A stretch of 64,000 nt of DNA from Apostichopus japonicus (lineage: Eukaryota > Echinodermata > Holothuroidea > Aspidochirotida > Stichopodidae): NCBI RefSeq assembly GCF_037975245.1, contig NC_092575.1:17325810-17389809 (forward strand), written 5' to 3'. The notes under the pieces were generated by a model, which did no database searches, was not told where the DNA came from, and was given only the letters and a program-made list of their open reading frames with translations. Positions 8,101 through 64,000 of this stretch are shown in pieces; position 1 is the stretch's first letter, and the number at the start of each line of letters is the position of its first letter. The position numbers were made by a program, and so were the translations under genes.

Positions 8101-8708
8101 GGACTCGTGTGTACTTTCAGTGGATGCATGTACGGTCAGTAGACGTGTGCATGGTCAGGGGGCACGTATGGCATCAACGGGCGCGTGTACGGTCAATGGA
8201 TGCGTGTACTGTCAATGGGCTTCCTTTCAATACTCTCTGTATAAGTAAAAAAAGTGTCGAAACCTAGATGATGCCTTGGAAATTTTTTATAAAATATTTT
8301 CAGGATGCCAGAAAAAAAATCTTTTTTTTTTTATCAGAAAAGACATTATTTTGTACTAGTATCTTAGCAACTCTAGCTTTCTGACAGTGTTAAAAGCCAG
8401 CAATCCTATGCAACCATTTCTTTGTTTAGATTATGTGCTGTTGGATTGAGGAAGTTTCTCAGTATTTTTTTTTAATATTATTTTTGCTTTCTGGATTTGT
8501 GGAGGAATTCTGGTTACAATATTTGAATAATTGTTTTTCATTAATTCATATTTTCACAAATATTCCAGATTTTAGTCCTGCTTCTTCAAGACGAGGTTCA
8601 AATTCGAGCACTCTGCCGGCCTCCTGGAAAGATTCTGCTCTCTATTACGACCCAGAAACGAAAAGAACCATCGCAGGAAGAAGAAAACCAGATCCAAAAG
8701 TGAAGTAG
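5197..8708 (+). CDS. FAM216A: FAM216-like protein (probable FAM216A orthologue), 5 exons, 291 aa
   Basis: Reconstructed exons: 5197-5322, 6125-6212, 6981-7307, 7787-7981, 8569-8708; all junctions have GT-AG ends and the phases agree. The N-terminal about 110 residues are Ser/Thr/Gln-rich and probably disordered. Residues about 137-145 read LQHPELTEG followed by a basic helical stretch, which I recognise as the FAM216 family core. The rest is basic and low in complexity, with no signal peptide or membrane segment. The human protein is of similar length and of unknown function. The call is strengthened by the neighbour: VPS29 follows in opposite orientation, as for human FAM216A. The exon 2 donor (gttagt) and exon 3 acceptor were chosen because they keep frame. 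An upstream exon or alternative start is possible: the initiator region has two adjacent ATGs, and the first is used here. Confidence 0.68.
5378..5909. repeat. Direct repeat pair in intron 1 of the FAM216-like gene
   Basis: About 115 bp at 5378-5498 recurs in diverged form at 5790-5909, with shared segments such as GCAGAAGAAATACT and AAACTGCATTCCACT. It is non-coding and probably a dispersed repeat or local duplication. Confidence 0.7.
8048..8220. repeat. Short minisatellite in intron 4 of the FAM216-like gene
   Basis: Roughly 18-24-bp imperfect units built on GTGGATGCATGTACGGTCA, repeated about eight times just after the exon 4 donor. Confidence 0.8.
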
Positions 8709-8916
8709 AGCTTAAACTATATTGATATCATTCTTCAAGATCCTGAAAGCTATTTATACAGAGTTGTAGTGAGTCATTTGATTGTAAAGTCAAGTTGATG
8801 CATATTCCAGGGATTTTCCTGTTTCCTATATTACCTCCAAACTTACATTACCTTGAATGAGTCACTTTCACACTTGAAATTTATTGACTGAAATGATGAC
8901 TTGTTACTACACTGGT

Positions 8917-8922
8917 ATTAAA
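8917..8922 (+). terminator. Candidate poly-A signal of the FAM216-like gene
   Basis: An ATTAAA hexamer about 210 bp after the stop codon. It is the common variant signal, but only positional evidence supports its use. Confidence 0.3.
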
Positions 8923-9044
8923 GATATGTTTTTTTTTTAGTTTCCAGTAAAATTGTTCAGGGTATGGTTTACAAATGACAGAGCATTCTGCTACATTTCT
9001 GGTAAGACAATATTTGTATTTCTTTATTAGTCTTCAGAGGTGTG

Positions 9045-49600: not shown

Positions 49601-51619
49601 TATAATGGTGCTAGTACTATTTATAGCTAATGCCTTCCATACAGATCTGTATTAACACATTCAACAGTACAGTACAGCAGAGTGCAGTATACTGGGCACT
49701 GTACACTGAGCACTGTATTCTCCAAGGGCCTGTGTACGGTACAATCATTGTCAACTTGGACGTAAATCTGACATATTTTCAATATAAAGTCTGCTCCTAG
49801 TGGCTGTATCAAAGCTTTGAATATATTGATTGATCCGTACTGGGAATAGAGGTAACGTTAATTCTCTTCGCAGCTCCTCTCTTACCACAACACGTACCGT
49901 AAGTTTGAGGTGGTCTGGGTTTGTAATCAGATAGTAATAATTGCAATTATATCTCAAAGTACATCTAAACGTTAGAAAAAGAAAGAAAGTAAGCCAGGCA
50001 GTAAAAATAGAGACAAAAACCACCTACTGTACAGGGAAGATAGCTCCTGTGTAGAAAACTGCTATACCATGCACCTGATACACTTGTATATAGCAACTTG
50101 ACCATTCTGTATATAGCATTTTGCAATAGGATACTGGAAGAGTTATATCCTGACCTACTGTACATAGGAACAAGCAGGTTGTAACCATGGTTATATCCAG
50201 GTTCCAGTAAGACATATGCCAATATACAACTGACACATAAAACAATTTCCAATATTGTTAATTTTTTTTTAAACCGAAAATGTATTTATTTTTAGTACCT
50301 AATAATAATATTTAGTTTTTGATCCTCTATGGCATTTGACCGATATTAATTGTGTACATGTATCTTACCCAGTACAATACAGATGTCACTGCATACATCA
50401 TTCCTCAGTCATATAACAAGGGACCAATCTTTGAAAAACTTTGACAAACAAACAAGAGCTCTTAAAACTCTGACAGGCTCCCAGGCCATAAAGCTTCATA
50501 TTTCAATTTGTAATTGCAATCAGCCATTCTCCGAGGTCTCTTCTAAACTTTTTTTTTCTTTTGTTCTTGGCTGTTTACAGAAATATGATACAGAAAAGAT
50601 CATCTTACAGCTCTGGAAGATTTCTTAATCAAGAATAGCTTTAGTATTTACCAGTAAGTTCACAGGGACTTATATTACTTAAAGCGGTTGTTGAGCTCTG
50701 AAGTTTGACATTTATTTTTAACGGTTAAATTCGCTAGTCTGTTCACAATATGATCGCAATATATCACATAAAGTTAGCATCCCTTGATAGAAGTAAAGTT
50801 TTGGCCTTATTCATTGAAGAAACTTTTAATACAGAAGAATACATAATAAAGACTGAAATGAACTTTTGCCAACCATAACTTGCTAAGTTTAAGTTACAAC
50901 CCCAAAGAAAATCTTAAAGCTTAAGAAATTAATAGAATAATTCTTTAAATTATATTGTTAAAGTTTTTAAGAAAAAAACAACCTTGAAGTAGTTTGAAAA
51001 TCTGCAATGAGAACGTTCACTTCACTGATGGAGATTTATTGACAGCCATTGGATTTCAATGTGCAGACAGAAGATAATCTAACAGAGACTCCTTTAATGC
51101 TACAGCTTAAGAATATTTGTGGGTCATCTCCATTACATGATAATGTGTGGGTGTCTGGTTGATGTCAATGATCTGCATGTTCATGTGCCAAAGATCTCAA
51201 ATGACAACTAATGGAAGCTGGCTGGCCGACTCTGTGACTTCTAAAGAGGTATGAATATACCGAAGCGCTCAGTGTGTCCAGACAATTAAGTGATGCACTC
51301 TAGCACTGTCTTTTAAACAATTAAGACAGAAGGATTTTTGCAATATATTGAAATGGTTGCCATGGAAATATTAACAGCATTTCCATGCATTTATCAACAA
51401 GCTCTTAAGAAAATTTCCTTGTTTTTTGTTGTTTTTGCTAAGTTTCTTGTTTTGGCTTTAATTGTTTTTCACTTTTCAATCTTCCTTCTGCAGTACATTA
51501 ACCAGAATGAAAACACTTCATGGTTCCTTGCTGCTGTTCATTAGTTCCATTCATAGGGAAATTTCTAACAAAGCCCTAATACAACAACAGTAATTTATGC
51601 TCACAAACTTTTGTTGCCA

Positions 51620-54380
51620 AAGTAATGGTAAGCCCTGATATCAATTGCAACACACATCAGTGTGTGAAGACTATCTACCATTATCATCATACCAAGTTTG
51701 ACGAAATTCCGACTAGTAATAGTAGCCAAGTAATTGCAATTTGGAGTATTTCACGTTTGACCCCATGTTCTCATTAATATTCATGAAATGAGCACCAACA
51801 TCAACAGGGATAATCTACTTACTATGGGCCACCCACTCACCAAGTATGGTAATGATTGGTCATTCCCTCGTTGAGTTATTGTGCATACAAACTTTTCATA
51901 ACGAAATAATGCTAGCCCCCCCCCCCCCCCCTTAAAAACATGCATGATATCAATTGCAACACACATCAGTGTGTGGAGACTATCTACCAATATCATCATA
52001 CCAAGTTTGACGAAATTCCAATAAATAGTAGCTAAGTTATTGCAACTTGGGAGTTTTTCACGTTTGACCTGTGACCTCATTAATATTATTTAACTTTGAA
52101 CTCGTATAACTTCGCACACGAAGGTCACATTGGGGTCAACCTATTGACATTTATGATCAGAAGGCACCTTTGACATCTGAAAATAGCATCGAAACTGTAA
52201 AAATCCCCAAAACACGAAACGGTCACCAGAGGTCAAATTGAGGTCAAGGGTCACCCAGATGCGGGTTGACAAATGGATTACATTGAAGCAACTCCCAACC
52301 TTAACGGACAGTTCGTTCTCAAGTTATCACAAAAATACTAGTTTTTTATCATTAATTGACCTTTGGTGACCTCGGATCACATGACCGTTAAGTTTGAAAT
52401 ATTCCCCTATACCATTTGCAACTTGTCCCAAAATATCAACCATGTCACACCTTGGAACTGAGAGTTATTGCATTCAATGTCTGAAAATTAACTTTGACCT
52501 CGTATAACTCCGCACACAAAGGTCACACGGGGGTCAACCCATTGACATTTATGATCAGAAGGTACCTTTGACATCTGAAAATAGCATCGAAACTGTAAAA
52601 ATCCCCAAAACATGAAAAGGTCACCAGAGGTCAAATTGAGGTCAAGGGTCACCCAGATGTGGGTCGACAATTGGATTAAATTGAAGCAACTCCCAACCCT
52701 AACGGACAATTCGTTCTCAAGTTATCGCAAAAATACTAGTTTTTTATCATTAATTGACCTTTGGTGACCTCGGATCACATGACCGTTAAGTTTGAAAATA
52801 TTCCCCTATACCATTTGCAACTTGTCCCAAAATATCAACCATATCACACCTTGGAACTGAGAGTTATTGCATTCGATGTCTGAATATTAACTTTGACCTC
52901 GTATAACTCCGCACACGAAGGTCACACGGGGGTCAACCCATTGACATTTATGATCAGAAGGTACCTTTGACATCTGAAAATAGCATCGAAACTGTAAAAA
53001 TCCCAAAAACATGAAAAGGTCACCAGAGGTCAAATTGAGGTCAAGGGTCACCCAGATGTGGGTCGACAATTGGATTAAATTGGAGCAACTCCCAACCCTA
53101 ACGGACAATTCGTTCTCGAGTTATCGCAAAAATACTAGTTTTTTATCATTAATTGACCTTTGGTGACCTCGGATCACATGACCGTTAAGTTTGAAAATAT
53201 TCCCCTATACCATTTGCAACTTGTCCCAAAATATCAACCGTGTCACACCTTGGAACTGGGAATTATTGCACTAAATGTCTGAAATTTTACTTTGACCTCA
53301 TAAAACTTCACACACAAAGGTCACCTGGGGTAAACCTATTGACATTTTTGATTGGTGAGACGTGAATATAGCATCAAAACTGTAAGAATTCAAACATTTT
53401 TTTCTTTGCCCATTTTCTCACCGAAAATACTAGTTTTTTAACATTAATTGACCTTTGATGACCTCGGATCACATGACCGTTAAGTTTGAAAATATTCCTC
53501 TATACCATTTGCAACTTGTCCCAAAATATCAACCTTGTTACACCTTGGCCCTGGGAGTTATTGCATTAAATGTCTGAAAATTAACTTTGACCTTGTATAA
53601 CTTTACACACAAAGGTCACCCGGGTGTCAACCCATTGACATTTTTGATCGGAAGGTACCTTTGATATCCAAATCTAGCATCAAAACCAAACATTTTCTTT
53701 TTCGCCCGTTTTCTCCCAAACTAAGCACATTTTTTCTAATGTGACCTTTGACCTTTTGACCTTGGTTTCAAATGTAGTTTGATCTGCTGATTCCAAAAAT
53801 CAACACGATAAGTCTGTACAGCCATCCTAACTCTAACCGAAAACTTTGACCCCATATAAGTTCGCACACAAAGGTCACACGGGGGTCAACCTATCCATAT
53901 TTATGATCGGAAGGTACCTTTGACATCTGAAAATAGCATCGAAACTGTAAAAATCCCCAAAACATGAAAAGGTCACCAAAGGTCAAATTGAGGTCAAGGG
54001 TCACCCAGATGTGGGTCGACAATTGGATTACACTGAAGCAACTCCCAACCCTAACGGACAATTCGTTCTCAAGTTATCGCAAAAATACTAGTTTTTTAAC
54101 ATTAATTGACCTTTGGTGACCTCAGATCACATGACCGTTAAGTTTCAAAATATTGCCCTAACCAGTTCACAACTTGTCCCAAAATATCAACCTTGTCGCA
54201 CATTGGCACTGGGAGTTATTGCAGTTTTAGTATTTTGGGTTTTTGGACCATAACTGACCTTTGGTGACCTTTGTGGGCACCAAAAACAATAGGGTTCATC
54301 TACTCACTATGGGCCACCCACCCACCAAGTTTCATCATGATCAGTCAATCCCTTGTTGAGTTATCGTGCATACAAGCTTA
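51620..54380. repeat. About 399-bp satellite array rich in AGGTCA half-sites
   Basis: Near-identical units recur at offset about 399 bp (for example the ACTCCGCACACRAAGGTCAC landmark at 52107, 52505 and 52904), with more diverged copies to 54250 and a leader from 51620. Each unit carries repeated GGTCA motifs, including GAGGTCAAGGGTCA. Open frames of 73 codons repeated at the same spacing are artefacts. Confidence 0.93.
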
Positions 54381-54387
54381 AGCGTCA

Positions 54388-54408
54388 CACACACACACAC
54401 ACACACAT
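54388..54408. repeat. (AC)n microsatellite
   Basis: About ten AC dinucleotides joining the 399-bp array to the following GGGGAC-rich segment. Confidence 0.95.
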
Positions 54409-54596
54409 ACATGTATAGGCTCCCAAATGGGGACAACTGCTCAACACAGGAGAATTGGGGACATGATGATATAACTTTGTACTTCCTACTGCTTGCGTAA
54501 AATAGCTCTTAAATAATATTAAAGGTACCAGCTTAATACTAAAATCTGTTTCTTGTCCATTTTCTATGAATTATTGAACTTGGTTCTACACATACC

Positions 54597-54800
54597 ATGT
54601 GGGGACACACTGTGTCACCTAACTGGGGACTTGGTGTGTCACCTAACTGGGGACTTGGTGTGTCACCTAACTGGGGACTTGGTGTGTCACCTAACTGGGG
54701 ACTTGGTGTGTCACCTAACTGGGGACTTGGTGTGTCACCTAACTGGGGACTTGGTGTGTTAACGAATTGGGGACTTGGTGTGTCAACAAATTGGGGACTT
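54597..54800. repeat. 24-bp minisatellite
   Basis: About eight copies of ACTTGGTGTGTCACCTAACTGGGG, the first six virtually identical and the last ones degenerate. The multiple-of-three period leaves several frames open, giving 8-residue repeats that are not evidence of a gene. Confidence 0.96.
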
Positions 54801-55554
54801 TCATTAACTGGAGAAACCCAGTGTCAACTAATTGGGAACACACTGTATCGACCAACTGGGGGCTCAACTGCAGTGGGGACAAACTTTCCTTGTGTCATGC
54901 AAAAGAAACAACTTGAAACAAACTGTGTAACATGTCAAAGCATCACCACACCAAAATCAAAGGTGACTCAAAAATGGGGCAAATTCTTTGATTCTATGAT
55001 AAAATTCTATTATTGCTATGAAGTAATTTGTTACACCAAAACATCCAATGTCCATTTAACACCTTCTCAACTTTAATATTTACATGGGTGGATTAAGGCA
55101 AGACGGTCCAAGGGTTTATAGTGCATTCATTGAACACATTGAATAGTAAGAAGTAGCAGTATACACACAGTGCATGATGCACAATAAAACTTTATTAACT
55201 GAAACTTTCAACAAAAAAGGTGCATTCTACAGTTTTCAGGAATTCCTAAAACAAAATGTTTTGACTGATTGCTTTTATGTCTGTTGCCTGGTAAAATACA
55301 GTTTGCAGACATTTCCCTATAAGAATAGCATAGTTAAACTGATGCTGTACACTACCAGTATTTGTACTATATATATGCAAATGGAAGTGTGAGTACAGTA
55401 CTTCAATTTCAGTCTAGAAGTGAAACAATTTGATATGAAACATACAGAAGCATTAAAACTGCTTCTCAACAAATAATGCTCAAAAATAATTAAGCTGTGT
55501 ACCCCTACATTAAAGATCCCAACCAAACTGTTTTCTAAAACAGTTCCCATGACA

Positions 55555-56440
55555 GACTAGAAAGACTGTGGCATTTGTTCCTGAGCTCCTTTCTGCATGA
55601 ATGACAACAATTAAATCTGTCTAACAATCAACAAACATGAATTTAACAAACTAGTAATAAAACATTAACCAAGAGCACTAAAACATATTCACTTTTATGC
55701 CAACATCAGGCTAGAACTCAAAAGGCAGTCAACATAGCTACTTAGCAGATTAGAAAAGTCTGTGGCATTTGTTTCTGAGCTCCTTTCTGCAATGCTCGAC
55801 AACAATTAAATCTGTCTAACAATCAACAAACATGAATTTAACAAACTAGTAATAAAACATTAACCAAGAGCACTAAAACATATTCACTTTTATGCCAACA
55901 TCAGGCTAGAACTCAAAAGGCAGTCAACATAGCTACTTAGCAGATTAGAAAGTCTGTGGCATTTGTTCCTGAGCTCCTTTCTGCAATGCTCGACAACAAT
56001 TAAATCTGTCTAACAATCAACAAACATGAATTTAACAAACTAGTAATAAAACATTAACCAAGAGCACTAAAACATATTCACTTTTATGCCAACATCAGGC
56101 TAGAGCTGAAAAGACAGTCAACATGGCTACTTAGCAGATTAGAAAATCTGTGGCATTTGTTCCTGAGCTCCTTTCTGCATGAACGACAACAATTAAATCT
56201 GTCTAACAATCAACAAACATGAATTTAACAAACTAGTAATAAAACATTAACCAAGAGCACTAAAACATATTCACTTTTATGCCAACATCAGGCTAGAGCT
56301 GAAAAGACAGTCAACATAGCTACTTAGCAGATTAGAAAATCTGTGGCATTTGTTCCTGAGCTCTTTATTCCATAAACAACAACAATGAAATCTGCCTAAC
56401 AAGTCAATAAACATGAATTTAACAAACTAGTAATATATGA
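55555..56440. repeat. 194-bp tandem repeat array
   Basis: About 4.5 copies of a 193-195-bp unit with GTGGCATTTGTTCCTGAGCT, AACAAACATGAATTTAACAA and TTTTATGCCAACATCAGGCT. TTAAATCTGTC landmarks fall at about 55611, 55806, 56000 and 56193. It ends just downstream of the SET/recombinase gene. Confidence 0.96.
56364..56369 (-). terminator. Candidate poly-A signal of the SET/recombinase gene
   Basis: AATAAA on the minus strand about 95 bp past the stop codon. It arises where the last 194-bp unit has diverged (CTCTTTATTCC instead of CTCCTTTCTGC). Positional evidence only. Confidence 0.45.
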
Positions 56441-56462
56441 ACACAGTAAAGTTTGACCAATT

Positions 56463-57090
56463 CTAATACCACTTTTTGTTAGCCCTTCCAGAGTGATTTC
56501 TTATGAAGTCTTTAATATTGGTCCACTTCCGTCCATCAAAACAACTGTACTTTTCCATCACCCTATCAATAGCTGTCTTTCCAGGCAATTGGTTTAATGC
56601 TATTTCTCGTCTGAATTCCTTTAAAACTACTCTTTTCTCATCTTCTGTCCATACCCTCCTTTGGTATTTTCTCCCTGAATGGACAACAAATATATACATT
56701 ACTATGTGGTGCTTTTGAAAAATACACCTCAATGTTGCCATGTGATAGTTTACAATATAAAGAAACAAATCACATCAAAATGTTTTGAGGTTGGTCTCCA
56801 GCATAAATTGCAATCTGTCTAGTATACTCCTCATATTTTGTTGTTTAAATAAAACTAGAAAATATTTATTTTAAATGGTTTGTTTTATTTATGAACAATA
56901 TTACCTTTCTTCATACTGGGTGGTTCTTCTCCTTCTGAATTAGTGCTTTCAAAAGTGGTGCCATTAGCTTGATGCAGAGACCCTACACTTTCCATGCTGC
57001 CCTCATCCCTACTTGTGTCCTCCTTCTCCTCTTCCTCCTCCTCCTCATCACTATCATCTGTATCATCAGATGATTCTATGTTGTCAATTT
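56463..57090 (-). other. Exons 9-10: acidic linker and W-rich C-terminal module
   Basis: Exon 9 (57090-56905) is Ser/Glu/Asp-rich with a seven-Glu run, so probably disordered. Exon 10 (56674-56463) encodes a compact 70-residue end with VWTEDEKRVVLKEF, LPGKTAI and GRKWTNIKDFIRNH. The two conserved Trp and helical spacing recall Myb/SANT-like DNA-binding modules attached to recombinase-derived animal proteins. That assignment is by pattern only. Confidence 0.65.
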
Positions 57091-60000
57091 CTGAGGAAAT
57101 AAAATCAATGACTGCTTAGATTTGTAGTACAGACAGCACCACATAAACGTAGCGTAGCAAACACAGGTTAGATAACGACAAGTACCATTCCTTGCATCAA
57201 AGACACACCTTAGCCCACAGAATTACAACTTGATAAACACTTTTTAAAGTATCACCTTAGATGATTACTAATTATTTAAAAAGGCAATTAAATTATTGAT
57301 ATATCAAGTTTTACAGTTCTTTAGCAGGTATACATTCTCCTCACTTCAGTATTTCTAATGTAAACTTTACAAATCAGCTTCAAAAGTCCTATTTGAACTT
57401 TAGCTACTAATTTAACTTATTGTACACTCATTTAAATATTGAACTTCATTGCAAAAACATGAAATAAATTCCTGCTTTTTACCATCATCTTTGTCAACTT
57501 CAATTTGGTCCAAAGACTTTCCTGCCAAGCTTGCTGTTGACCCTTTCTCCAAAGAGAGAAGTAGCTTAGATATTTTTGCCACCTGCAGCGTTGCATCTGG
57601 TAAACGGTAGAACTCTCTGTGAACTCGTACATCATGTCCCATAAACTTAGCCAGCATGTCAAGCTCGTTATCTTTAAGATTAAGGACTTGGCTGATTGTG
57701 GCAACATGCTTCCTCAAGCTTGTGGAACGAAGTTGGGTTGGATTCTTCGCTCCGCAAAGAGTTGCAAACTTTCGAATGCAATCAGCACCCCTAATGTGTG
57801 CATCTGAGTTGGATGTAGCACAAGGAAACAAAAACTTATTGTCAGGGTTGACACCTACTTTCTGCCTGAGGCTAATGAGTAAATCCACAGTGTCTTCCAT
57901 CTGTTTTGTTAGCAGCACTGGTACAGTGTTCCCTTTCTTTCCGATGATTTCAATCCTTGTGAAAGTTTTGCAAAGTTCCCTTTCAAACTTACTGAGGCAC
58001 GCAGAGATGTAATCAGCTTTCTCTGATGAGGCTTTCATGTTGTAATCATCAATAGATACTTTGGAAATTTCTCCTTGCCTTCTTCGGTTGAATAACATAA
58101 TTTGTGTCAGAGTTACCTCATTAAGTACCTTCCAAGAAGCTGCTGGGTCAGACTTTCCATCCTCCAACTTTCTTTTCTCATCATGCCCAATTTTTTTCAG
58201 GAAGTTTGAGAGAGTGCAAATGTCTTCCGTGAGTGGTAGTCTCTTAGGGGCATTCCTCTTGTTTTCAGTCATAGTGCGATGAGCATGACGGGAGACTTCC
58301 TCAGTCCACTTCATTTGGCATAACTCAAAGAAATTGGTTGACTGGTTGACAATCTCCTCATCACCTTGTTTCAACCCTTGTGCCTTGACAAGGAGTGCAC
58401 ACTTCTTAATACTATGTCCAAGCTTCAGTGCTAAACTTGGAACTTTGTACAGATGTGTTTGTGTGTCAAAACCAGCCACATTCCTCGCAGCTGTCACAAC
58501 ATGGTCAAACTTAGCTGGATGTATGAAGTCAGCAAGTTCATTATCTGGCTCATTACTGATAAGTCGTATCTCAATCAGTAGTCTGGCCATCTCTCTTAAC
58601 TTGGTTCGTATGTAATTTTGTTGTTCTTTGTCATGACCAAGCTTTAAGAATTCTTTCTTTGCCAGCTGACAAATCAGACTATCACTCTTCAAACATCGTG
58701 ACACGTCATCACCTTTTAACTTGCTAAAGAGTTCATCAAGCTGCAGGTCTGAATTGTTGAGGCTTGGAAGGAGAAGTTTTCCATTTCTGACTAGTTCTCC
58801 CCTCCTTCTCTTCAGTTTGTTTGAGGAAGCCGGCTCCAAATGACATGTGTGTTTGTAAAGGAACCTCTTCGCATAGTATCCATAACAGGTTGGACAGGGA
58901 ATGAAGTTTGATGGCTCAGTGATTTCATTTGGCCTATACCTGACAATTAACTCTCCTGATCCCTGTTCCAGCACCTTGCAATTTTGTAGGTGATTTCCAA
59001 GATTCCTGATTTTGGTGAGCTTTGCTGCCTTCAGTGTGTGATGATCCTCCTGCATCCAGTCAGCCACTGCAGATTCATTGCAATGGGCTGATCGAAGATG
59101 TCTTGGTAGCTTAGCTTGAGGTATTTCGCAGTAAAAACAAAACTGTCTTTTGTCATATACTCTACAATCCTCATTGCTTGTAGACTTCACGGTAATCTGT
59201 GATGTTCTTTCATGATCGGTCTGCTGCTCATCCACTACCTTAGAGTCATTCTCCTCTGGCAAAGTCAGATTTGGATACAAAACATATGAAATATTTGAAT
59301 CATCAGATGGTGGCACAACATCATCATCTTCATCTTCATCATCACTGTCGTCATTGTCGCTGTCAAGCTCGGAGGCAGAATGATAAGACTGTGTATCTGC
59401 AAATGTAAATCAAGTAAACAGGAGAGTAAAGCTGTCACTTAGTCATGGTGGCAGCAGCAATAAAAGAACTTACTTTGAATGCAGAGTTCTCTGAAAAGAT
59501 GTTAAGGATATAAACAGACACTAATGCATCTACAACTTATATGAGCTGCAACTATTCAACAACGACATAGCCATGCCTACCATATCAAAACATGCTAAAA
59601 TGAGTTAGTGTTTTTACCTTCAGGAACAGAATGTTGCTCAACGAATCGTTGTTGTGGGTCTGTTAACGTCACATCTGGATGCCCGACGCAATTATGCTTT
59701 GATCCAATAACATTGTTAGTTTTGTCTAGCTCTGTTAATATGGAACTGATAGTATCCATAAGATGCTCTGGTTCAGGGAGGGAGTTACATGGAACAGCCT
59801 CTACACAAAGAAAAACAGCGAGAAAAATGAAGCAAAGTAGTTTACTTTCAATACAGAATAATGATGACCTGTAACTAGAGCAAAAACAAGAAATGAAGTA
59901 TTTAGAACAGCTTCTAGAAAAGCAAAAACAATGATTGGATATTGCTGATATCCAAGCTTATTTAAATAGATGTCTTACAACATGAATCTACATACTACTA

Positions 60001-63000
60001 GCTGCAATTTTATACGGGAAACACAGGTAATTTTCTTCACCAATAATGGCATGAGTATATCATTGGACAACAACTATGGTCTCCAGTTATCTAAACATTG
60101 TCAAAATGAGAGACTGACAGCAATGATTTTCACTTGCAAACCATTCCATTGTCTAACTGCAATTTAATCCTTACTTGATGATCATTGTAACATTTCAGCT
60201 TTTTTGCAAAATACAAGTTTTTGCATTAAGTTGATAGAGACTTCATTTGTTAAACAAACCTCACCAGGTTGTCATGTGCACTTATTTAAGAAGCATACTT
60301 ATAGTCAATGCTACATTAGATAAACTCTGCACAACTTTTAAGTTTGTACCTTCTGAAATTGACTTTCCTTCAACAAAGGCTGGTTGTTCCTGTGTTAACA
60401 CGAGATTTGGATGCCCATTACAATCCTCTGATGATCTCATAACATCATAAGTTTTTTCTAGTTCTGCAGATGTCGAGCTACAAGTAGGCATGGGATGTTC
60501 TGAGTCAGTGAGGAAGCTACGTGGAATTACTCCTGCAAGAAGAAATGAGAGGAAAAAGGAGGCAAAATAAGTTTGCTCAATGCAGAATAATATGTGAACA
60601 AACCGCAAACATAGAAGGAAGTCTACCCTCTTACACTTATTTCATTCATCTTGAATCTACATGCAACCATTGACAATTTGACACAAAAATTCAAACTATC
60701 AGCAGTTGAGCAGACATATCGATATGACAACCATGTTCTATAATCATCAAATTATCCATCCACCTTCCCTACTTAATGTGATATATTTAGCTCATTGCAC
60801 TTTTGAAGGTCTCGTCACCAGACTAAATCAGTGGAACAACCTCACTACATTCCAAAAACTTTGCTACTGCATCTCTGAACGTGGTGACTTCTCTACGTTA
60901 ATTACTACAATTTATCAAACACATGAAGTTCATAAGTTTGTACCTTCAGAAACCGAATCTGGCTCACAAACTGCCAGTTGTTCGTCTGTTGACATCAGAT
61001 CTGAATGTCTAACCCAATCTTCCACTGTTTTCATAACATCAATTCTTTTGTCTGGCTCCTTGGATGCTGGACTGCAAGTAGCCATCTGTTCTTCTGTAGC
61101 AGTGTAAGAGTAACATGAAACAGCTTTCACAAAAGCAAAAATATTGTTTACTGCAGTGTATTAAAATGCATTCACTCCTACAATAAATTGTAAAACCATT
61201 CCTGAGATGGTAAACAGATCTTGAAAATGTTTCACATTCTAAATTCCACTCAATTTCAAACTGAAACAATGTCTCAGTCTTTCTCATATTTTAAGTTTGA
61301 ATTTCCCTCATTGTTCGTCACCATAGAAATAATTGTTGCAACACACTTATTATGTGAACATGGCAAGAAAAATAATAAGCCAACATTTTGCTCTTTCCTT
61401 CCTTCTTAGATCCTGACCGTTATATATCCTGCAAATTAGTGCACCTCACTGTAATGTGAGGTCTTACATGAAGTACAATGTGTAGAATTTAATACATCAA
61501 ACATATCACATAGGCCTACAGATAATTATGCCTCCGCAAAAAAAATATAAAGTCAAAAATATAAAGGATCACTATCTGTCAAACATATAAAAAAAATACA
61601 TGATAAGACACTGCTGAAAATACAATGTAATTCTAGTACCTTCAGATGGAGCATTTTCTCCTTCTCGGACACGGCTCTCAAAAGAAACCTGTTGAAGAAG
61701 CAGAACACGTTCTTATTACAAAATATTAGCATTGTAAACTTCAGTAAATAGAAATAGATCAATTATATGGGTGGATTCAAACTTAATCTCCCTTCTCAAG
61801 ACATCTATAAGGCATTACAGTGCCACAGAGCATGCTCAATACAGTTACCCATTCAAGCAGACCCTCTCATAGTATACTCATAGTAAACACAAAATGAATG
61901 CATGAACATTTTTGTAATGAAATTATATGGGTCAAATGACTGGGAAATGTTTAATAACAACTGTGCAAAGAAATTGAGGCTAGAGAGAGTTCCACATAGC
62001 AACCTCAGGGACATAAGTCCTGCACTTAAACACCTGACCTATCTAGCTGAATGAAGGTAGAAAGATTCCTTACTAACCACTCTCTGAAGATTTCAGTGAG
62101 AGCCACAGTACAGTGCCTTCTCTAAAGGCATATAGCCTAGGGATCACAACTTATTTACATTTCATAAATCAACCAAACAGGGTCCCTGAACCCTGTTCTG
62201 GCCTCAGTTCATTTGAAATTGCAACATTTTAAAATTTTATGGAGGAGCTTGATGGTGTTTAAATTCCATATTTTCTAAAAAATGGCACTATCTGATAAGG
62301 TAACTCTGCAATGTTCTTTCCTACAAACAGCCTTACAAGTGAAATGATGATTTTAATAGTTATGCTGGCTGACACATTGGAATGTTGGAAGTTTCTGAAT
62401 GTAAGCTCCTCTCTTGGTAATGGAGGGAGGGAGTTTGGGGGGGGGGGGTAAATTTAAATTGCACACTAACCTCTTTCACCCATGGAAGATTGATGATTCC
62501 ATAGTCATACAGAATTTCAGTGTCTTGCTTTATATCCTTGGTTGCAAAAAGACACAGTACTGGCCTGTTGTTGTAAGTCTTAACGACGATTTTGGAATTT
62601 ATTTCCCCACCTATGCCATGATTAACAAGTCTTCCAAATTTTGGACCTGTTTGCGGTTCAGTGTTTGCATCAACACTAGAAATAAAATGAGAATGGATAA
62701 GAATTGGTAAATCACCTGTTTGTATATCACATTGTAACTAACCAAAGTTGATAGCTACTTTTTTTTAGTTTGTCATTGCAATCACGTACCTGATGCAAGG
62801 AGGGTATTGAAAAATATCGGTGAATGTAAAAATATACATTAATTCTCTGACACTTCAAACTGGACATCCAACATATTGTAATTATTTCTCCACTTTGGCA
62901 TTTTTAGCTTTGTTTCATCTTGAGGAATTGCCTTTACTTAGAGCAAATCAAAAAGCTTACCACCATTTCTTCTCTCTGTACTTAAAAAAGTAACGAAATA

Positions 63001-63441
63001 CGCTTGGTTCTTCTATTTCCCTTTGTTCCCCTTCCTTGGCTGTGATCAGTTCCCCCGAGTAAGTTACCAGAAACCATCCCATTTTGAATGACTGGGAAGT
63101 AAACAGACTCCTTCCTGAAAGAGGCAATGCGTTTTTTTGAAAAGTAATGAAATCCATCACTATTCACTATCACTAATTGATATCACTAATCTCCTGTAGT
63201 AATAACTGCTGCCGAATACTTACCTTAACCACATCTAATAAATTTAACTTGACTGCATCATACCTCAAAACCCAACAATAGTTAAATAAAGAAGGACATT
63301 TACACTTGTAATTCAAATTGAAAATTTAAGTGAAAAAGTACCTTTTGTTGGTGATATCTTGACCAAAAACCCAGGTGGATCTTCCTGCATATATTTATCA
63401 AAACTAGGCCCTGGGCCGTGCCTTGTGCTACGTCTTGACAT
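56463..63441 (-). CDS. KMT5A-like SET domain / tyrosine-recombinase fusion gene, 10 exons, 1121 aa
   Basis: Exons in transcript order: 63441-63342, 63114-62961, 62675-62471, 61688-61640, 61123-60944, 60532-60350, 59800-59618, 59396-57483, 57090-56905, 56674-56463. All have GT-AG ends and join in one frame ending at TAG. Residues about 34-153 are a SET domain: FLVTYSGELITAKE, FGRLVNHG and EILYDYG, then PWVKE as in the KMT5A (SET8) C terminus. Residues 170-351 are three homologous exon-encoded modules. Then come an acidic stretch, two C2H2-like motifs, a tyrosine-recombinase core and a C-terminal W-rich module. SET8 monomethylates histone H4 Lys20; this copy has GRS where SET domains usually have GRG. 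Six consecutive introns (4/5 to 9/10) are phase 1. It may be a domesticated transposon fusion or a mobile gene. Whether one transcript covers all ten exons needs RNA evidence. Confidence 0.75.
57483..59396 (-). other. Exon 8: acidic region, zinc-finger motifs and tyrosine-recombinase core
   Basis: This 1914-nt exon begins with an Asp/Glu/Ser run. C2H2-like motifs follow at protein residues about 438-456 (CFYC...HLRSAH) and 519-537 (CPTC...HTCH), then a basic KLKRRRGEL patch. The recombinase part has RRRQGE (about 789-794), a GKKGNTVPVLL hairpin (about 837), TSLRKHVAT (Arg 913), GHD (His 939) and REFY (Tyr 948). These match the R-K-R-H-Y set of tyrosine recombinases, with Thr or Ser in place of the first His of HxxR. 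Crypton-type elements carry such enzymes. If the final donor is not used, the frame runs on to a stop at 57412. Confidence 0.8.
59618..61123 (-). other. Three tandemly duplicated 60-61-codon exons
   Basis: Exons 5 (61123-60944, 180 nt), 6 (60532-60350, 183 nt) and 7 (59800-59618, 183 nt) are symmetric phase 1-1. They share a pattern: E-x-x-M-x-T near position 13, a D/E-K-x-x-x-V-hydrophobic centre, then HPD/HPN-x-x-L-T and a V-x-E-x-x-S-V/I-x-E-G end. Flanking intron sequence is also similar (for example CAGAATAATATG versus CAGAATAATGATG), showing duplication of exon plus intron. Function unknown. Confidence 0.85.
62471..63114 (-). other. SET domain exons 2-3 of the fusion gene
   Basis: Exon 2 (63114-62961) begins the SET fold with GRSLFTSQSFKMGWFLVTYS and ends KKW plus a split Cys codon. 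Exon 3 (62675-62471) completes CVDANT, the cofactor-binding FGRLVNHG segment and the catalytic-type EILYDYG, then INLPWVKE. KMT5A has equivalent YCVDAT, RLGRLINHS, LLYDYG and HPWLK blocks. The core tyrosines and NH pair are kept, so activity is possible. Confidence 0.85.
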
Positions 63442-64000
63442 AATTTTGTCTGGAATCAAGAAGAAGGTTGATAGTGTCCATTACATATTACCCAGGGAGC
63501 CCAAAAAAGCAGACAGCACAACTTTTTCCAAACTACGTAATTCAGAATGTTTATATAATATATATCAACATTAAAATTTAACGACTAAATTCTAAGGAGA
63601 CTTAATTATCATCTTTACAATTATTAAGTAAGGTGACTGAATCCAACAATGAGCTCATAGCATAACTTGGCCAAGCTACTAAATTTGAAAAGATTATACT
63701 AATTTCATGACTATAACATGATGCATCTAATCTTATGATAACATGTCACACCACAATATTCCCCTTGAAAAGAAAGGAAGGTTCAATTACCTCAGAAGTG
63801 CAATACATTTGCTCCATTCATTTCACATAGCTTCAATTCTAGTATCTGTAACACATATACATGCAGCTATAACTCTTTAAGATTAACTTTTCTATACATG
63901 GGCATCCTCAATATTCAGGTTACATAAAATTGAATAAAAAACAATAGAATGAAAAGTCTGGTCATCGAATACGAAAAAGCACCATGCAGACTGAAAGTCA
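63442..64000. other. Right edge, probable 5' region of the fusion gene
   Basis: No coding exon seen. On the minus strand TTGATTCCAG precedes ACAAAATT and the start ATG, which would suit an acceptor for an upstream 5' UTR exon. The promoter is probably here or beyond the window end. Confidence 0.4.

Follow-up and report, generated by a model that had tools for sequence, protein, structure and literature searches.

What kind of gene joins a SET domain to a tyrosine recombinase (YR)? This question is raised by a 64,000-nucleotide stretch of the Apostichopus japonicus genome (NCBI RefSeq assembly GCF_037975245.1, contig NC_092575.1, positions 17,325,810 to 17,389,809, forward strand; hereafter the window), on whose minus strand an earlier reading of the letters alone, here called the original prediction, had recognised such a fusion, in a host gene or a mobile gene. 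Our analysis makes it highly probable that the gene lies in a Crypton-like YR DNA transposon with no other recognisable coding unit, and that a KMT5A-like SET domain is a constant module at the N-terminus of the recombinase protein throughout this superfamily. Because related copies in the genome keep the SET-YR pairing, this would be an unusual kind of transposon and not a single host fusion gene.

Rebuilt from the window DNA, ten minus-strand exons between 56463 and 63441 join in one continuous frame, with GT donors at 9/9 and AG acceptors at 9/9 intron borders. These positions agree with the original prediction, and the domain order that it gave (SET, zinc finger, YR, W-rich module) is supported as well; its product length of 1,121 amino acids was not reproduced, the rebuilt boundaries giving 1,111 residues plus a stop codon. 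The exons are:

63342..63441, minus strand: exon 1, start codon and N-terminus
62961..63114, minus strand: exon 2, first part of the SET domain (PDB and Pfam matches)
62471..62675, minus strand: exon 3, second part of the SET domain (VDAN...GRLVNHG...LYDYGI; PDB and Pfam matches)
61640..61688, minus strand: exon 4, linker
60944..61093, minus strand: exon 5, apparently repeated linker exon, phase 1
60350..60532, minus strand: exon 6, apparently repeated linker exon, phase 1
59618..59800, minus strand: exon 7, apparently repeated linker exon, phase 1
57483..59396, minus strand: exon 8, acidic stretch, C2H2 motif, CCHC motif and YR
56905..57090, minus strand: exon 9, acidic linker
56463..56674, minus strand: exon 10, W-rich C-terminal module with three helices predicted at low confidence and without a known match

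Exons 5, 6 and 7, of 150, 183 and 183 bases and all in phase 1, look by eye like three variants of a single linker exon.

The search space for related sequences was the 671.6-Mb assembly, in which the window lies on contig 15 (C15; other contigs are numbered likewise). The YR exon has at least 70 matches there, at identities from 100% down to 30%, a lower bound with 69 of 248 candidates scored. At 70/70 scored YR matches a SET match lies within 40 kb upstream on the same strand, the nearest at a distance of 763-30,489 bp (median 3,852), and SET is also present downstream at 1/70 and on the opposite strand at 1/70; this pairing count drew on three SET searches, with all 110 rows, all 147 rows and 30 of 107 rows. 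Since SET lies upstream of 70/70 scored YR matches, the arrangement is not a matter of chance, nor is it that of a single host gene. A subfamily without SET was considered when three YR loci at first seemed to lack it (67/70); SET exons were then recognised in the upstream DNA of one of them, and a further search detected the same exon at all three.

The 70 YR rows include two pieces of one locus and many near-identical copies, so the independent subfamilies are fewer than 70; among the 25 rows in which both modules were read, 18 remain after merging YR distances below 0.15. For comparison of residues, 26 of the 70 YR matches, window included, were aligned as DNA, leaving out near-identical copies, loci that were partial or decayed, and one subfamily's three loci on C7 and C17. 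SET rows came from 25 of these 26 loci (the C2b slice gave none), and a 20-row YR alignment is a subset of the 26 rows.

The fusion is independent of splice prediction, because the second half of SET and the YR share an uninterrupted frame at five loci. In these, picked because the searches had listed one long frame for both parts, a single open frame takes in both the second SET exon and the YR at 5/5 loci belonging to three subfamilies, with 950, 1429, 1498, 1256 and 1169 codons on C3, C16, C15, C6 and C4, respectively.

In one count, 60 of 140 SET matches had no scored YR nearby, and we take these distant matches to be host SET genes or elements with an unscored YR. Further arrangements were seen among the SET matches. 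The YR at C17:20144155, which has one stop, is accompanied by a SET at C17:20136208, downstream on the same strand at 7.8 kb, probably a neighbouring or broken element. Two SET exons about 3.1-3.4 kb apart with no scored YR nearby occur at C14:10622669 and 10625818, with other such pairs on C14, C4 and C19, and a non-coding repeat appears to be common to this group and the window element, judging by eye from the resemblance of a slice open reading frame (ORF; 8693-8998) to window 53891-54073. Finally, a SET-bearing unit is present in three copies at C13:9229189, 9269216 and 9309243, with a period of exactly 40,027 bp.

Comparison of the window with copies on C4, C7, C8 and C14 set the limits of the element in which the gene sits. 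It measures 13,698 bp, from window position 51500 to 65197, that is, 1,197 bp beyond the window (C15:17391006), and has the following features in the window:

51500..64000 plus 1,197 bp beyond, minus strand: transposable element, defined by copy comparison, with its 5' (SET-side) end outside the window
51500..51533, minus strand: 3' terminus of the element, with arm AGCAAGGAACC, a short palindrome, then ...CATTCTGGTT at the border
52090..53352, no strand: 399-bp tandem repeat, 3.2 copies, within the element
54611..54800, no strand: 24-bp tandem repeat, 7.9 copies, within the element
55553..56435, no strand: 194-bp tandem repeat, 4.6 copies, within the element

The C4 copy is 99.3% identical to the window over 9.66 kb and the C7 copy 98.8% over 9.04 kb, their YR exons being 100% and 99% identical with open frames, and this near-identity makes it probable that the window family moved recently. 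Copies on C8 (1.02 Mb) and C14 (0.34 Mb) lack 57402-63408 and represent deletion derivatives, and an abundant short form of about 2.3-3.0 kb keeps both element ends; the one short form read whole consists of window 51497-54411 (99.8% identity) joined to the last 90 bp. The ends are exact: 40 of 41 left-end matches begin at the terminal base (577 candidates, 40 scored), and 36 of 40 right-end matches reach it (1,406 candidates, 40 scored). The borders AACCAGAATG (left) and AGCAAGGAACCAAAAA (right) recur in 14/14 end pairs read, of which ten come from short forms, and in 14/14 the flanks are unrelated, with no target duplication seen. The search for multiple copies with shared boundaries, which the original prediction had proposed, thus found both, with at least 70 YR matches and the same borders in 14/14 end pairs. 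Its alternative of a host or a mobile gene is settled in favour of a mobile element by the exact recurrent ends, the unrelated flanks, the deletion derivatives and an empty site.

This empty site came from joining the flanks of 14 insertions and searching the genome with them, the best 40 places being scored. All 40/40 continue across the point where the flanks of the C14 deletion derivative were joined, with 97-98% identity. The site is an A-run in a host repeat, reading GG-A6-CTATAC in two and GG-A7-CTATAC in four of the six places read, whereas at the C14 insertion the element is preceded by GG-AAA and followed by A6-CTATAC. Comparison of the empty A6/A7 with AAA plus A6 at the insertion indicates that the element entered the A-run and that two or three A were gained on balance, with no target duplication beyond these. 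The host repeat has a distribution of its own: near the start of C20 it recurs every 168-204 kb (247001, 435186, 638337, 841899, 1010393, 1209792 and 1386524), and near the ends of C19, C4 and C11 in steps of 173-372 kb, a spacing that would suit the marker of some long subtelomeric unit.

Written in the direction of the gene, the 5' end opens with TTTTT, after which comes a hairpin with arms that start with GGTT and finish with AACC, and the 3' end carries one more arm copy, a small hairpin and the terminal CTGGTT. Three 5' and two 3' end types were read, and the arms near both ends are 11 bp in the window element. The first 5' type, GGTTCCTTGCT[GA]AAAGCAAAGGAACC, is that of the window and of the C7, C8, C14, C21 and C5 copies; the second, with 13-bp perfect arms, was read in the window-family copy on C4, at C17 (19.1 Mb) and in a copy on C8 (7.7 Mb) that belongs to a second family; and the third, GGTTTCGATGAAATCGTAACC, in two other copies of this second family, on C19 and on C8 (31.7 Mb). 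One 5' end of each type folds better than the mean of its dinucleotide shuffles (z -4.6, -6.9 and -3.1, with 0, 0 and 3 of 200 shuffles at least as good), as do two 3' ends (z -2.4 and -3.4, with 5 and 0 of 200 at least as good); by this computation the C7-type form of the 3' end folds as a hairpin. Folding being predicted, these palindromes may simply be double-strand binding sites. The ends seem to have been exchanged between subfamilies, because the window-family copy on C4 and the second-family copy on C8 have the same last 65 bases although the YRs of the two families are 47% identical.

The second subfamily, at C8:7746267 to about 7765556 and C19:453430-470245, spans about 17-19 kb and bears long tandem arrays near both ends, whose periods, estimated from the spacing of matches, are about 210 and about 316 bp. 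The 3' end of this subfamily was found again at 40/40 scored places (1,405 candidates), and its C8 copy has an altered 3' terminus. For the C5 subfamily the 3' end was not found.

The recombinase lies in exon 8, behind two zinc motifs that are conserved among the 26 aligned rows: the C2H2 motif (C427 C430 H440 H445) is kept in 24/26, with gaps in 2, and the CCHC motif (C508 C511 H523 C525) in 26/26. R780, K827 and R902 are present in 26/26 rows and H928 and Y937 in 25/26 (1 gap), with roles that we assign by comparison with Cre. Pfam integrase families gave no match to the window YR at E up to 1, and Phage_integrase matched 3/20 YR relatives (best E 8.6e-5). A structure model built from the 20 aligned relatives reached a mean predicted local distance difference test score (pLDDT) of 73.5, mostly above 80 in its middle, and a predicted template modelling score of 0.46. 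With this model Foldseek placed XerH on top (E 8.6e-4, the sole match below 0.001), then XerD (0.05), S. aureus integrase (0.09), topoisomerase IB (0.2) and unrelated proteins. The modelled fold and the invariant residues together support the assignment of exon 8 as a tyrosine recombinase.

PDB sequences searched with the YR alignment profile gave two matches, best E 0.6, neither of them a recombinase, and a single scan of viral contigs with the YR alignment gave 28 pattern matches, none confirmed as relatives. DUF3504 was absent among the Pfam families matched by the 20 YR relatives (E up to 1), and none of its nine genome matches (20/20 candidates scored) lay at a YR locus. The W-rich module of exon 10, about 70 residues long, has 78 genome matches and is 38% identical to the module of another subfamily; it matched nothing in Pfam and nothing significantly in the PDB, and a 69-residue model (mean pLDDT 68) gave a best Foldseek E no lower than 4.8.

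As predicted, the N-terminal module is a KMT5A-like SET domain: it matches Pfam PF00856 over the full profile length with 57.1 bits (cut-off 22.4), and the best PDB match of residues 22-144 is KMT5A/SETD8 (E 4.3e-17), which also accounts for the first 14 of the 33 PDB sequences matched (E 4.3e-17 to 2.4e-15). Between the window and a relative of 63% identity, 34.1/41.8 synonymous and 40.9/141.2 nonsynonymous sites have changed in SET exon 3, and 340.1/406.3 and 364.9/1462.7, respectively, in the YR exon. Nonsynonymous change thus amounts to 29% in SET and 25% in YR with synonymous change near saturation, which suggests that in this pair SET is constrained about as much as YR; near-identical copies have too few changes for a usable dN/dS. 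Two other rows, designated C19b (C19:16117845 and 16135553), combine a SET near the C2a family (dN 0.28) with a YR far from it (dN 0.76), a mismatch that could reflect either module swapping or two neighbouring elements.

Several results weigh against a SET-bearing transposon moved by its own recombinase. Splicing of the window copy is predicted. The HxxR histidine position of the YR is Thr in 25 and Ser in 1 of 26 rows, and the last 80 residues of the YR model, which hold R902, H928 and Y937, have a pLDDT of about 53-70 before the tail. A second structure comparison gave VIA Z values of 11.3 to XerH and 8-10 to XerD, Cre, lambda Int and IntI, in a range (up to about 13) that may be unspecific for helical proteins. 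SET and YR distances are correlated across 25 rows (r 0.68, 0 of 9,999 permutations), but r falls to 0.12 (1,116 of 9,999) for the 18 non-redundant rows, or 0.23 (142 of 9,999) with untrimmed SET slices; congruent histories are therefore unsupported for these 18 rows, where 60 residues may be too few or the modules may have been swapped. The empty-site evidence comes from one insertion, the other 13 joints being uninformative because only the best 40 matches were scored. The C14 joint is as compatible with a different enzyme that duplicates two bases as with YR recombination through a short A core. On the SET side, the residue after YDYG is Ile in the window copy and Asp in 0/25 SET rows, where KMT5A carries an Asp that we take to be Asp338, and NH is replaced by ND in 13/25. 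A KMT5A mutant, D338A, is termed catalytically inactive in a passage of PMC7135998.

These points lend themselves to four other explanations. Methylation by the SET part is doubtful because the Asp after YDYG is replaced in 25/25 rows and NH by ND in 13/25, and these same replacements, together with an amino-acid sequence that is nonetheless constrained, would suit a domain that no longer methylates and was kept to bind nucleosomes or partners, or one that methylates something other than H4K20. The window copy, however, retains KGR, YSGEL, VDA, GRLVNH and LYDYG, and many active SET enzymes carry a residue other than Asp after YDYG, so we hold this possibility to fall a little short of an even chance. 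That the SET part methylates at all seems, from its residues, about evenly balanced, and the role that we favour for it is engaging chromatin during recombination. The original prediction of catalytic-type residues for both enzymes therefore stands for the R, K, R, H and Y of the YR, and fails for its HxxR histidine, which is Thr or Ser in 26/26 rows, and for the SET part, which is without the KMT5A Asp in 25/25. A different concern is that the YR gene might be a passenger of an element moved by another enzyme, either one that duplicates two bases (AA) or a Helitron-type enzyme using the terminal hairpins. The hairpins at both ends and a joint that also fits a duplication of 2-3 A would agree with this, but no second enzyme gene was seen (7/7 scanned ORFs without a Pfam match, a subset in which small exons could be missed) and the active-site residues of the YR are invariant, which leaves such a mover improbable.

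SET and YR might also be two element proteins made from separate transcripts, as their separation of up to 30 kb in some subfamilies would allow; against this stand the single open frame of the second SET exon and the YR at all five loci and the matching exon phases in the window model, and we consider it very improbable. Least tenable is a host explanation, in which a SETMAR-like fusion gene, or a host family spread by segmental duplication, merely has repeats nearby. The window frame is indeed intact and ten exons are unusual for a transposon, but exact ends are common to copies with unrelated flanks, deletion derivatives have the same ends, and copies lie on many contigs. The copies, the ends and the empty site rule out a single host fusion gene, and the unrelated flanks rule out segmental duplication for the window family, so that hardly any room is left for this explanation.

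The highly probable reading, a transposon whose recombinase carries the SET domain, can be placed among known systems. We class the element with YR DNA transposons, with a probably Crypton-like mechanism, though not with CryptonA. Cryptons (CryptonA/I/F/S) use a YR as mobility enzyme without reverse transcriptase and are present in an echinoderm, as described in PMC3212892, and the window element would resemble them in these two respects, in apparently having no ordinary target duplication (one empty site, two or three A gained) and in non-autonomous forms outnumbering full copies. According to the passages of that survey on animal Cryptons, no C-terminal domain and no terminal repeats were found in them, whereas the window element has SET, two zinc motifs, a W-rich C-terminal module, introns, a length of 13.7 kb, and 11-bp arms and hairpins at its ends; the main text of the survey (Kojima and Jurka 2011, PMC3212892) mentions neither a SET domain nor a methyltransferase. 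The window-family YR is unmatched by DUF3504 and is followed by the W-rich module, unlike CryptonA. The label "Crypton-like" in the original prediction therefore suits the element in the broad sense of a YR DNA element in which no reverse transcriptase or second transposase was seen, and does not extend to the CryptonA-derived DUF3504 profile, which the YR misses.

SETMAR, the primate fusion of SET and the Hsmar1 mariner transposase, likewise joins SET to a DNA-transposon enzyme as outlined in PMC6326780 and PMC8327481, but it is a host gene; in the present case a YR stands in place of the mariner enzyme, and mobile elements of many subfamilies carry the fusion themselves, in keeping with the earlier claim of a case different from SETMAR. 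The retrotransposons with DNA cytosine methyltransferases described in PMC5890265 are similar in that a mobile element took up a chromatin-modifying enzyme, although that enzyme acts in DNA methylation and the present element is a YR DNA element with a protein-lysine-methyltransferase-type domain. The SET sequence itself is closest to KMT5A/SETD8, the H4K20 monomethyltransferase, from which it differs at the position after YDYG. No reverse transcriptase or second transposase appeared among the ORFs listed in the element, where small exons could be missed, which sets it apart from the DIRS/Ngaro YR retrotransposons; and there is no long ORF beside exon 8 and no Rep/helicase protein was seen, unlike in Helitrons. 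The other ORFs of the element are short, and the 7/7 scanned had no Pfam match at E up to 0.01, a subset in which a gene of many small exons could be missed. No SET-YR element was found in the open-access literature searched, and one may be described in Repbase or in subscription journals.

The integron integrase IntI with its attC sites (PMC2727003; IntI structure 2a3v) shares with the element the YR fold and hairpin-capable sites with changing arms, but that system is bacterial and the end hairpins here are known from computed folding. An unlikely extension is that these elements form a separate animal YR transposon superfamily with an obligatory and ancient SET module that engages chromatin, and whose ends would be recognised at least partly as folded hairpins with changeable, still-pairing and exchangeable arms, in an attC-like logic; no such logic was found described for eukaryotic YR elements in the literature searched.

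Apart from these elements, COX1 of the mitochondrial contig was translated with genetic code tables 2, 5, 9 and 14; Asn, Ile and Ser at seemingly conserved positions came out with tables 9 and 14, a sign of an echinoderm host, although flatworms use this code too. Another set of COX1 matches, in broken pieces, lies at contig 29:14745-31219 and may be a mitochondrial copy that is nuclear or misassembled.

If the element moves as a Crypton-like YR transposon, its recombinase would bind the 11-bp arms near both ends and, as proposed for Cryptons, would excise a circle that recombines into A-runs through an AA core, with the zinc motifs and the W-rich module helping to find DNA. More tentatively, the SET part might let the recombination complex engage or mark chromatin at the donor or target, on histone H4 or another lysine substrate, and might thereby tie movement to the chromatin or cell-cycle state or allow escape from silencing. 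Should this be true, a whole transposon family, and not one domesticated gene, would have a protein-lysine-methyltransferase-type domain in its own recombinase. It also makes testable the idea that a DNA transposon times or directs its own movement by reading or writing chromatin marks, and we would guess that some "KMT5A-like" gene predictions in animal genomes may stem from such elements.

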